A DNA stretch of 64,000 nucleotides from Acidobacteriota bacterium (lineage in GTDB: Bacteria > Acidobacteriota > Terriglobia > Terriglobales > Acidobacteriaceae), in contig JABCZL010000008.1 in NCBI GenBank assembly GCA_013289685.1, positions 1-64,000 of the forward strand. Direction: 5' to 3'. The notes beneath the pieces are model-generated. The model was not told where the DNA came from, searched no databases, and worked only from the letters and a program-made list of their open reading frames with translations. Position numbers and translations under genes: made by a program. Position 1 is the first letter of the stretch; every line of letters starts with the position of its first letter. Positions 14,831-55,154 of this stretch are shown piece after piece.

Positions 14831-14875
14831 GGGTGCCCCATTTCTCGCGCGTCTTTTGCGCGAGAAATGGGGTCG
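14831..14875. repeat. REP-like palindrome, family 1 (copy also inside murC)
   Basis: 15-bp perfect stem CCCCATTTCTCGCGC (14836-14850) / GCGCGAGAAATGGGG (14858-14872) around loop GTCTTTT, with GGGTG in front. The inverted copy at 53573-53615 differs by one base. Here it lies between gdhA and the HhH gene and may act as a terminator or mRNA-stabilising hairpin for gdhA. Confidence 0.9.
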
Positions 14876-16320: not shown

Positions 16321-16355
16321 CCCGCCCTTGCAAAAAACGCAAGGACGGGGCACCC
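16321..16355. repeat. Diverged REP-like palindrome, family 1 type
   Basis: CCCGCCCTTGC (16321-16331) pairs with GCAAGGACGGGG (16339-16350) with one mismatch, A-rich loop, and ends in GGGGCACCC, the same outer end as the 14831 and 53573 elements. It sits between gdhA and pstS. Confidence 0.6.
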
Positions 16356-51636: not shown

Positions 51637-52734
51637 ATGCGGGCAATGCTGGCGGGCGGCGGGACGGGCGGGCACGTGATCCCGGCGCTGGCCATCGCCA
51701 ATCAGCTCAAGAAAAGCTACGACGCCGAGGTGCTGTTCATCGGCACCGCCCGGGGCATCGAGAACCGGTTGGTGCCCGCGGCGGGATTTCCCCTGCAGTT
51801 GGTGCGCGTGGGCGCGCTGAAGAATGTCAGCGTGACGACGCGGTTGAAGACGGCGTTCGATTTGCCGCGCGCCGTGTGGGATGCTAGCCGCATGCTCAAC
51901 GAGTTCGCGCCCGACGTAGTCATCGGCGTGGGTGGATATGCCTCGGGCCCAGCGATGCTGGCGGCCGTGATCAAGCACATTCCGACGCTAGCCTTCGAGC
52001 CGAACGTGGTGCCGGGATTTGCCAATCGGGTCGTTGCGCGATTTGTGTCCGGAGCGGCGGTGCATTTCGAGGAGACGGCAAAGTATTTTCGTCACGCTGA
52101 AGTCACAGGCGTGCCGGTGCGGCAGGCGTTTTTCGAGATCACTCCCAAGCGCGGTGGCACTCCCACTTTGCTGGTGTTCGGCGGGAGCCAGGGCGCGCAC
52201 GCCATCAATCATGCGATGATTCGCTGCTTGCCCGTCCTGCAGCGCGAGGCGCCGGGCATTCACATTATTCATCAAACGGGCGAGCGTGACTATAATGACG
52301 CGCTGGCGGCGTATCAGTCGTTGCAGAACAGGCCGGGCGTGTCCGCGGTGAGTTTCACATTCGAGGTCTTCAAGTTCATCGAAGACATGCCGGCGGCTTT
52401 CGCCCGCGCCGATCTGGTCGTATGCCGCTCGGGAGCGAGTACGGTCGCAGAAATTGCGGCGGCGGGGAAGCCCGCAGTATTTGTTCCGTTCCCGCGCGCG
52501 GCCGACGATCATCAACGCATCAACGCCGAAGCCCTGGCGCGGCACGGAGCCGCGGTGGTGGTCGAGGAGTCGAAGCTGGAGGGAGTCTGGCTAGCGGAAA
52601 CGATCGCGGCGCTGCTCCAGGATTCGCGGCGGCTGCAGCAAATGAGCCAGGCCGCGCGCGAGTTGTCGCATCCCAATGCCGCCCGCGATATCGCTGCCCT
52701 GGCGGCGCGGGTAGGAGGAATCGAAGAAAGTTAG
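51637..52734 (+). CDS. murG: Undecaprenyl-PP-MurNAc-pentapeptide GlcNAc transferase
   Basis: Adds GlcNAc to lipid I to give lipid II, on the cytoplasmic face of the membrane. 365 residues in the GT-B fold. [18 protein letters not shown] (UDP/lipid loop) at the N-terminus, [38 protein letters not shown] and [14 protein letters not shown] 51637 gives the normal MurG start [12 protein letters not shown] 51619 is six codons upstream. It stands between a minus-strand gene and murC. Confidence 0.95.
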
Positions 52735-52820
52735 CCACGGATTTGCACGGATCTTCACGGATACTTCGTTTTTTTTCAAAGTTGGGGGCTTATCTATGTG
52801 ATCCGTGTAAATCCGTGGCC
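52735..52820. repeat. Inverted repeat CCACGGAT family
   Basis: CCACGGATTTGCACGGATC (52735) and the mirror GATCCGTGTAAATCCGTGGC (52801-52820) flank a T-rich stretch. It begins 1 bp after the murG stop, between murG and murC. Confidence 0.8.
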
Positions 52821-52833
52821 AAGAAGTTGACTT

Positions 52834-54255
52834 ATGTTCGCGAAAATTCAACGCATTCATTTCGTAGGCATCGGCGGCATCGGAATGAGCGGCATCGCCG
52901 AGGTGCTGCTTAATCTCGGCTACAAAGTTTCCGGCTCCGACCTGAAGAGTTCCTCCGTCACGCAGCGCCTGTCTGGCCTGGGCGCGGCGGTGTTTGAAGG
53001 ACATCGCGCGGAAAATATTGCGGGCGCCGAGGTAGTCGTCACCAGTTCGGCCATCGCCGCCGAGAATCCCGAAGTCACCGAGGCGCACAAGTTGCACATT
53101 CCCGTAATCCAGCGCGCGGAGATGCTGGCCGAGTTGATGCGGCTGAAATACGGCATCGCAATCGCCGGTATGCACGGCAAGACGACTACGACTTCGATGG
53201 TGGCTGCTGTGCTGGCCGCGGGAGGGCTTGATCCGACCGTGGTGGTCGGCGGCCGAGTCGATGCGATGGGGTCGAACGCGCGGCTGGGAAAGTCGCAATA
53301 CCTGGTGGCCGAGGCCGACGAGAGTGACCGCAGCTTTCTTAAATTGTCCCCAATACTATCGGTCGTGACCAACATCGACCGCGAGCACATGGACTGCTAC
53401 CGCAACATGCGCGACGTTAAGAAAACGTTTCTAGACTTCATGGACCGGGTACCGTTCTACGGCATGATCGTAGCTTGTAATGATGATCCTGTGCTGCGGC
53501 GGCTGCTGCCTGATGTGCAGCGGCGTACGGTGACTTACGGGACCAAGCGCGGGTCCGATTTTCTGATCAAAACCCCCACTTCTCGCGCAAAAGACGCGCG
53601 AGAAATGGGGCACCCGCCTTTGAATCGGTTCGGTGTCAGTTATCGCAGGCAAAATCTGGGCGAGTTCACGCTGCACGTGCCCGGGGTGCACAATGTGCTG
53701 AACGCGACGGCGGCGATTGCCGTGGGCATCGGCCTGGACGTTGGCGTCGAGGCCATCCGCACGGCGCTCGACCAGTTCCGCGGCGTCGACCGGCGCTTCC
53801 AGTTGCGTGGACGCGCGGCGGGCGTGAGCGTCATCGACGATTACGGCCACCATCCCACCGAGATCAAGGCCACGCTGGCGGCGGCGCGGCAATGCGGATT
53901 TCGCAAGATTCACGTTATCTTCCAGCCTCACCGCTACACTCGCACCCGCGACCTGATGGAAGAATTTACTGCCGCCTTCGACGATGCCGACTCGCTCTTC
54001 GTGCTCGACATCTACGCGGCGAGCGAGAAGCCGATCGAGGGCATCACGGGCGAAATCCTGGCGCAGAGGATTCGGGAGAAAAGCGGGAAGAGCGTCCAAT
54101 ACGCGAGTTCGCCTGCCGACGCTGCCGATTCAGCCGCGGCGACCGCGCAAGACGGAGACATGATTCTGACCCTGGGAGCGGGCAGCGTCTCCCAGTTCGG
54201 GCCACTGATTCTGGACGGATTGAAAGAGAGGGAGGACGCCCATGCGGGCGACTGA
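52834..54255 (+). CDS. murC: UDP-N-acetylmuramate-L-alanine ligase, with palindrome insert
   Basis: Adds L-Ala to UDP-MurNAc, first ligase of the stem peptide. 473 residues. IHFVGIGGIGMSGIAEVL, ATP loop GMHGKTTTTSM (about 110-120), EADESDRSFL, TNIDREHMDCY, and HPTEIKATLAAAR are present. Residues about 247-261 ([15 protein letters not shown]) have no counterpart in ordinary MurC and are encoded by a REP-like palindrome inserted in frame. The ORF is otherwise intact, and the insertion lies in a loop between DFLIK and FGVSY, where it might be tolerated. Confidence 0.94.
   Translation: MFAKIQRIHFVGIGGIGMSGIAEVLLNLGYKVSGSDLKSSSVTQRLSGLGAAVFEGHRAENIAGAEVVVTSSAIAAENPEVTEAHKLHIPVIQRAEMLAELMRLKYGIAIAGMHGKTTTTSMVAAVLAAGGLDPTVVVGGRVDAMGSNARLGKSQYLVAEADESDRSFLKLSPILSVVTNIDREHMDCYRNMRDVKKTFLDFMDRVPFYGMIVACNDDPVLRRLLPDVQRRTVTYGTKRGSDFLIKTPTSRAKDAREMGHPPLNRFGVSYRRQNLGEFTLHVPGVHNVLNATAAIAVGIGLDVGVEAIRTALDQFRGVDRRFQLRGRAAGVSVIDDYGHHPTEIKATLAAARQCGFRKIHVIFQPHRYTRTRDLMEEFTAAFDDADSLFVLDIYAASEKPIEGITGEILAQRIREKSGKSVQYASSPADAADSAAATAQDGDMILTLGAGSVSQFGPLILDGLKEREDAHAGD
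53573..53615. repeat. REP-like palindrome, family 1, inside murC
   Basis: CCCCACTTCTCGCGC (53574-53588) loop AAAAGAC, GCGCGAGAAATGGGG (53596-53610) and CACCC. It is the reverse complement of 14831-14875 with one mismatch in the left arm. As mRNA it forms a 14-15 bp hairpin within the coding sequence. Confidence 0.92.
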
Positions 54256-54398
54256 GGCGTCCCGCTTTCTGACAGTGCGGCACTCGGGAGAGCTGGATGA
54301 ACAGCGCAGTACGTTCTAATTGGCAGAGCAGAGGGAGCCGGATGAAACGATTTCAGCCAAGTATTCACAATCTCCAAGAGTCACAATAGAGTGATCCT

Positions 54399-55154
54399 AT
54401 GGCTGCGCCACCTCTGATCTCCAAAGAAACCACTGTCAAAAGCGAGACCTACTACGTAACCATTGATCTCGGAGGAAGACCTGCCCCCAACCCCATGACG
54501 GGAATCTTTGTTCCTGAAAACTATAAGTTTTCAGCAGAGGTGGATGTGATCTTATGGCTGATGGGGCACCACAACAACCCAACCTATCCCGCATCCCTCA
54601 CTATCCAGCAGTACTGGACGCAATATTCGAGCTTTCATTTCCGCGAGTTTGTGAACATCGGCAACAAGAACGTGATTCTTGCGGCCCCGACTTTAGGGCC
54701 AACTTCGCAGTCCGGGAACTTGACTAACTCCAGCGGACTCTCCAACTATCTCGACCAGGTGTTCGCCGCGTTGGGAGCTTACAGTTCTTTCCAAAGCATC
54801 CCGACACTCCGCAACCTGGTCATTGCCTGCCACTCCGGAGGCGGTTCTCCAATGCTTAAAATTGCCCAGACCACTCAGCCGTACTCCGGCAATATCAAGC
54901 AACTCTGGGGTTTCGATTGTGTCTACGGCCCTGTCGAAAGCAGCTGGGTGCAATGGGCACAACAAAACAGCGGCAAAATGCTGTTGATCCGCTATGGTGA
55001 AAGCACTCCAGACAGATCTAAAACACTGAAGAGACTGGCTGCGAAACAATCGAATATCGACGTCGACGGCGATACCGGAACCCACCACAATGACGTGCCG
55101 CAGACGTATTGGAACCGGTTTATGCGACAAGCCACTTTCTTCGCAGATAAATAA
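54399..55154 (+). CDS. Alpha/beta hydrolase-like protein of unknown role
   Basis: 251 residues, no signal peptide. VIACHSGGGSPML is a nucleophile-elbow-like motif (GxSxG variant CHSGGG), and THHNDVPQTYW offers a candidate catalytic His near the C-terminus. A strand VDVILWLMGHH precedes. Substrate unknown. It lies between murC and ftsQ, where murB and ddl often stand. The cytoplasmic location makes it a poor candidate for a division function. Confidence 0.6.
   Translation: MAAPPLISKETTVKSETYYVTIDLGGRPAPNPMTGIFVPENYKFSAEVDVILWLMGHHNNPTYPASLTIQQYWTQYSSFHFREFVNIGNKNVILAAPTLGPTSQSGNLTNSSGLSNYLDQVFAALGAYSSFQSIPTLRNLVIACHSGGGSPMLKIAQTTQPYSGNIKQLWGFDCVYGPVESSWVQWAQQNSGKMLLIRYGESTPDRSKTLKRLAAKQSNIDVDGDTGTHHNDVPQTYWNRFMRQATFFADK

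Follow-up and report, generated by a model that had tools for sequence, protein, structure and literature searches.

The murC gene of an uncultured-type soil bacterium of the Acidobacteriota carries an in-frame palindrome that is probably, with a likelihood of about three in four, one copy of a REP-like family spread by RAYTs and borne as an in-frame passenger in permissive protein loops. The copy was found in the window, the whole 64,000-nucleotide stretch analysed here, which comprises bases 1-64000 of contig 8 in a genome (G000) of 6,846,238 bases and 48 contigs. Relatives of the palindrome recur throughout this genome and its genus, they interrupt genes far less often than random placement would, and they keep the reading frame wherever this could be judged.

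A palindrome within the murC reading frame

The host ORF (52834..54255, + strand, 473 aa) encodes MurC, UDP-N-acetylmuramate--L-alanine ligase, and scored 545 bits against the NCBIfam profile TIGR01082, for which the cut-off is 335. Nothing else in the genome matches MurC strongly, the three remaining matches being 26-30% identical. The nearest named records for this MurC come from Terriglobia or Acidobacteriaceae assemblies, the best of them with 89% identity along part of its length. Positions 53573-53615 of this ORF read CCCCCACTTCTCGCGCAAAAGACGCGCGAGAAATGGGGCACCC, and translation of the ORF confirmed the original prediction of a palindrome carried in frame in murC and coding for about 15 residues, which are MurC 247-261. 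Sequence and fold resolve the + strand element into a hairpin plus tail of 42 nt (53574-53615), with one extra C before it at 53573: a left arm CCCCACTTCTCGCGC (53574..53588), a 7-nt loop AAAAGAC (53589..53595), a right arm GCGCGAGAAATGGGG (53596..53610) and an unpaired right tail CACCC (53611..53615). The palindrome is imperfect, with one C.A mismatch between the arms that recurs in many of the listed family copies. On its left, TCAAAAC (53567..53573, +) occupies the position of an unpaired tag, as defined from the murC loops and the tag profile of 120 copies; it overlaps the host codons ATC AAA, where non-carriers have ATC AAG, and the insertion junction is ambiguous to the base.

Two relatives lie elsewhere in the window. 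An intergenic copy with the murC-type stem stands on the - strand at 14831..14872, one mismatch away from the murC copy over 42 nt; the reverse complement with one mismatch reported earlier is thus real, although it ends at 14872 and not at 14875. The sequence at 16321..16355 (+), described earlier as a diverged relative, does have the family ends, including the same GGGGCACCC end, but its stem is a different one (CCCGCCCTTGC / GCAAGGACGGGG). An inverted repeat of a different kind (TTAGCCACGGATTTGCACGGATC ... ATCCGTGTAAATCCGTGGCC) occupies 52728-52826, directly upstream of murC.

A high-copy family with fixed ends and exchangeable stems

The end motif TGGGGCACCC occurs 176 times in the genome (81+95), against 8 occurrences (2+6) of the reversed motif, and the hairpin pattern CCCCN{8,38}TGGGGCACCC gave 136 matches (66+70, with five-C copies counted twice) against 0 for the reversed control. 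The concern that the murC and 14831 matches might not recur elsewhere in the genome was thereby removed. The same controls ruled out chance self-complementarity of GC-rich DNA and low complexity, and leave a negligible chance that the murC palindrome is an accidental self-complementary coding stretch, a reading in favour of which we found nothing.

The family unit has three parts, namely (TC)AAAAT as an unpaired tag, a hairpin of the form CCCCAC-stem-loop-stem'-TGGGG and a CACCC tail, with AAAGAAC as the commonest loop. In the left flanks of 120 exact-end copies, positions -5 to -2 were A (82, 91, 91 and 79%), position -1 was T (75%), -6 was C (57%) and -7 was T (48%); the two bases after CACCC were G in 72% and 61%. 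The outer hairpin ends are conserved and the inner stem is exchangeable. A stricter family pattern was present in 32 of 45 genomes of the genus, with many inner stems, each self-complementary, such as CCTAACGTCGC, CCTGTCGC, CCTAGCCGC and CCTCTTTCGC. Among 297 phylum-wide genomes the tagged pattern was found in two, both of this genus and its only two in the draw. An arm-swap test on the G000 copies gave 95.7% complementarity versus 91.8% after swaps (maximum 93.2%), a weak contrast because two stems dominate these copies. A loose structural scan performed poorly (238 matches versus 97 in reversed DNA), and a stricter filter with 149 matches was used instead. In some family hairpins a second palindrome of the CCTTCGACAAGCTCAGGGCAGGC type lies within the left arm and forms composite units of ~65 nt; such composites were seen in murC of G018 (L012), at C1:539670 and C4:110076 of G000, and in the alaS loops of G014, G017, G041 and G046.

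Copies inside genes are depleted and keep the frame

A genome search with the 43-bp element and a count of its in-gene copies and their frames had been suggested with the original prediction, and both were carried out. The in-gene scan covered 80 stretches plus the window, 1,629,847 bases (1.63 Mb) in 71 merged pieces. Its 149 structural matches included 23 within ORFs whose coding signal continued to either side, from which four were discarded by eye as non-family (C2 416259, C4 264072, C5 30512 and C7 258289), leaving 19 copies in 18 coding genes, with two copies in alaS. Eleven of the 18 hosts pass their NCBIfam cut-off, namely murC, uvrA, truB, hpnE, recN, smc, tilS, a XerC/D-type recombinase gene, a cysteine desulfurase-like gene, mnmE and alaS. 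Weaker matches, or matches below the cut-off, point to an agmatine deiminase, an HpnB-like glycosyltransferase, a RecA-like protein, a RarA-like AAA ATPase, an M20 peptidase and a TPR protein; the remaining host gene, which drew no match in the NCBIfam profile search, tentatively encodes an ABC permease. The copies occur in both orientations (14 sense, 5 antisense) and in all three phases.

Only 17 of 120 copies fell in strongly coding ORFs, compared with 344 of 600 random 42-bp places, so that 103 of 120 are extragenic in this sense. Where one strand carried coding signal both before and after a copy, the frame was kept in 14 of 14 cases and shifted in none. Depletion from genes together with this uniform frame suggests that selection removes most genic insertions and keeps the readable ones. 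Two explanations had been put forward for the intact murC frame, a mobile-like repeat able to land in coding sequence or a family that arose with one stop-free frame. The former gains support from the frame kept in a core gene, the wide recurrence of the element and the presence of RAYT-type genes. In favour of the latter, no stop interrupts any of the six frames in 102 of 120 hairpins, versus 31.5% with an arm shuffled; however, the copies use both orientations and all phases, they are related to one another, and TAG or TAA does occur in other stems of the genus, and for the last two reasons we rejected a stop-free design.

The murC loop holds different palindromes across the genus

Twenty genomes of the genus yielded the MurC loop. 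A palindrome was present in seven (G000, G001, G003, G007, G008, G011 and G018), each with a different stem, that of G018 being a composite with a second palindrome, and the junctions and phases differ among the carriers. The G007 copy was counted by eye, its exact family end being lost, and a strict scan found 6 of 36 murC loci occupied, 16 of the 36 lying outside the 20-genome set. The other 13 of the 20 loops hold unrelated linkers of similar length, and simple presence or absence of an insert was rejected for this reason. Accordingly, the suggestion that relatives would lack residues 247-261 held for the residues themselves, but not for the length of the loop, which is filled by such linkers or by other palindromes; the opposing case, in which all relatives have the same residues encoded by different DNA, fails since the 20 loops differ. 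At this loop, MurC proteins with solved structures have 9 residues fewer. A MurC tree of 16 genus rows, from which four partial ones were omitted, requires five changes for the palindrome, of which well-supported branches force two; a single origin of the murC copy is unsupported by this tree.

In an AlphaFold model of MurC (13 sequences, mean pLDDT 77.7), residues 249-262 have pLDDT <50 and lie between strands 243-246 and 265-270, which places the insert in a low-confidence turn of a predicted beta-hairpin. Judged from this model, the insert most likely sits in the turn as a tolerated passenger rather than as a functional module.

Orthologous loops in other host genes

Twelve further sites were compared in up to eight congeners each. 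A family hairpin was present in 25 of 94 orthologous loops, where "loop" includes up to 60 nt of flank, and one more hairpin lay elsewhere in the segments. The occupied loops were distributed over alaS site 2 (7), rarA (5), recN (4), xer (3), mnmE (2), and uvrA, tilS, the M20 gene and the agmatine deiminase gene (one each), while the strict scan found none of eight congeners occupied at truB, smc or alaS site 1. Part of this occupancy is, as far as the sequences tell, inheritance: the xer insert of G004 encodes the same peptide as that of G000, and the insert at alaS site 2, which contributes seven of the 25 loops and is probably inherited, is widespread. Site 1 of alaS offers a clean empty site: an insert of 54 nt, AGTTCAAAA included, is missing from seven of eight congeners, showing that the tag arrived with the hairpin there. 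The mnmE loop contains a family hairpin in G000, G013 and G018, and other palindromes, for example GGACGGACG..CGTCCGTCC, in G001, G003, G004, G007, G011 and G022.

The alaS loop allowed the two arms to be followed through the genus. The gene was matched in 37 of 45 genomes, of which 30 gave loci; the loop measured 57-135 nt in 27 of these and 21 nt in three, and by eye the insert was nested or composite in G054, G058, G059, G014, G017, G041 and G046. We aligned 14 distinct cores from 17 species, leaving out nested, composite and diverged loops. Standard pairs made up 97.0% of 168 cells, compared with 27-51% in slid controls. Five of 12 pairs had changed on both sides, a number that 0 of 500 shuffles reached, although related rows can beat shuffles without structure, and two of these five pairs vary in G060 only. 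One double change, G-C to T-A in G000, G016 and G018, requires three or more changes on the tree, and the sisters G004 and G016 differ in this pair. Such co-change may arise by point change in both arms, by copying from arm to arm, or by replacement with another copy.

Association with RAYT-type transposase genes

The advice to look for a RAYT/TnpA_REP transposase was well placed: four PF01797 matches were found in G000, and 43 of 45 genus genomes have such matches. We inspected 22 PF01797 matches in 20 hand-picked loci, and a family hairpin lay within 800 bp of 15 of these 22 chosen genes; two of the loci (G001 C20 and C6) were known beforehand to have palindromes nearby. In five loci (L307, L308, L309, L311 and L322) the transposase gene lies between inverted copies of one stem, and in L311 (G001) the murC-type stem stands on both sides of the RAYT-type gene. 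In a separate set of 14 loci, made up of the four in G000 and ten top-scoring ones in the genus, L041 (G000) alone was clearly flanked, by the CCCGCCCTTGC type seen at window position 16321; this CCCGCCCTTGC / GCAAGGACGGGG type also flanks transposase genes in L320 and L322. L042, L128 and L129 had one related hairpin each, and none of the four G000 loci was flanked by the murC-type stem. Across 45 genomes, transposase count was a weak predictor of palindrome count (rho 0.34), no better than genome size (0.37).

Several top-scoring IS200-like genes have another palindrome nearby, and in L128, L129, L130, L131 and L132 this belongs to a different family (CCCGGCGTT..AACGCCGGG and related sequences), in which TAG often precedes the hairpin. 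The RAYT-type gene of L041 (G000 contig 3, ~271 kb) is accompanied by three GGGGCACCC hairpins, and the ORF adjoining it is presumably RHS-like.

Relation to known repeat families

The acidobacterial family resembles REP/RAYT systems in its short, high-copy hairpins with unpaired ends, its mostly extragenic location and its position beside RAYT-type genes, seen at 15 of the 22 chosen matches, five of them within the usual inverted pair, and at one of the four in G000; different stem classes also stand with different transposase genes (PMC3733652, PMC3686654 and PMC8266576, each in part). Published excerpts describe REPs inside ORFs in many species, including uvrA, truB, tRNA synthetases and other repair genes (PMC3733652, in part), and uvrA, truB and a tRNA synthetase gene host in-frame palindromes here as well as in those unrelated bacteria. 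REPs also occupy about the same site of recB in two Xanthomonas species (PMC3733652, section 15). On the other hand, the family lacks the GTAG / GT(A/G)G (GTGG) foot, its hairpin-adjacent quartet being GGTG, as seen in copies with the CACCC tail that was itself part of the search motif. It also bears (TC)AAAAT as another unpaired tag on the opposite side of the hairpin, its stem (4-5 + 7-9 bp) is longer and encloses a 7-nt loop, and it belongs to Acidobacteriota, where one loop carries differing stems across many congeners. Since the foot is missing and cleavage is a prediction from analogy, we file the family as REP-like and not as proven REP; cleavage of single-stranded REPs has been demonstrated for a few systems (PMC8266576, in part).

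Like the palindromes described here, RPEs are inserted in frame into many unrelated protein genes, truB among them. Known RPE families include the CGTC-tagged RPE-4 or RPE-6 and RPE-1. By description, these differ from the acidobacterial family in phylum and sequence, the ends here being TCAAAAT and CACCC. Excerpts of PMC3733652 name the Rickettsia RPEs as a like case and report that they lack a dedicated transposase, whereas the acidobacterial palindromes flank RAYT-type genes. Tyrosine transposases with terminal repeats, the TIRYT TIRs, are reported in Acidobacteria including K. versatilis, many with a motif that starts with GGGG, GGGGWSAS (PMC3733652 and PMC6006769, each in part). However, GGGGCACC departs from GGGGWSAS from the fifth position on, and the repeats here are single hairpins, a distinction drawn at the level of the repeats.

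Discussion

A mechanism consistent with these observations would begin with RAYTs that spread single-stranded hairpins by recognising the stem, so that stem class would go with the transposase, by analogy with published REP systems, in which classes switch at orthologous transposase loci (PMC3686654, in part). Most genic insertions would be lost by selection, and the survivors would be those in frame and in loops tolerating extra residues. Re-occupation of such permissive loops, or rewriting of their stems, would explain the different palindromes in orthologous loops. Against mobility stands the fact that a transposition event was seen nowhere in the genomes compared. More tentative, and in our estimate somewhat short of probable, is the extended reading from sequence comparison that these are recurrent loop extensions from transposase-specific palindromes, in which the MurC, AlaS, RarA, RecN, MnmE and Xer loops are re-occupied by different stems and both arms of genic copies are rewritten together while the protein stays readable.

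Two other readings would also account for the paired arms in alaS. If the in-gene palindromes were kept for a useful mRNA or DNA hairpin, for instance to pause ribosomes for domain folding, one would expect the high pairing and two-sided changes of the alaS loop, the repeated G-C to T-A change and the long insert in 27 of 30 congeneric loci. But that alignment excluded nested, composite and diverged loops, and intergenic copies keep pairing too, so that a mutational or mobility-linked cause suffices. The hairpin is moreover absent from the three 21-nt alaS loops, from 13 of 20 murC loops and from most smc and alaS site 1 loops, and Rfam gave no match (E up to 1) in window positions 52600-54400; we therefore consider a useful hairpin unlikely. 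Alternatively, each loop might hold one old inherited palindrome whose arms drift together by template switching within the hairpin, without new insertions. Here the joint arm changes in alaS, the hairpin common to many congeners at its site 2, the identical xer peptide, and the G001 and G008 murC stems, which by eye resemble one diverged stem with matching changes, all fit. Such descent is nevertheless quite unlikely as a general account, given that the murC stems are subfamilies dispersed through the genomes, that their carriers differ in junctions and phases, and that alaS has nested copies in one loop and a clean empty site at the other. A REP-like family spread by RAYTs and carried in permissive loops remains the preferred reading.

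In-frame REP insertion as such is already known (PMC3733652, in part). What looks new is this family, its presence in Acidobacteriota, and one loop with differing stems across a genus; among open-licence PMC papers we found neither the family nor any in-gene palindrome in Acidobacteriota described, nor a case in which different stems re-occupy a loop genus-wide. If the extended reading is true, REP stem switching, so far described at orthologous transposase loci, also takes place within protein-coding sequence.

In a phylum where such repeats are little studied, the palindromes show that core genes can take up members of a high-copy family while the cell survives, and that in many species this happens at the same loops. 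Residues encoded by these palindromes in core proteins should be annotated neither as errors nor as conserved domains. The orthologous proteins with and without inserts form a natural series in which to measure how loops accept new sequence and how the stem of a mobile hairpin changes, and whether selection or the mode of copying preserves a coding hairpin.
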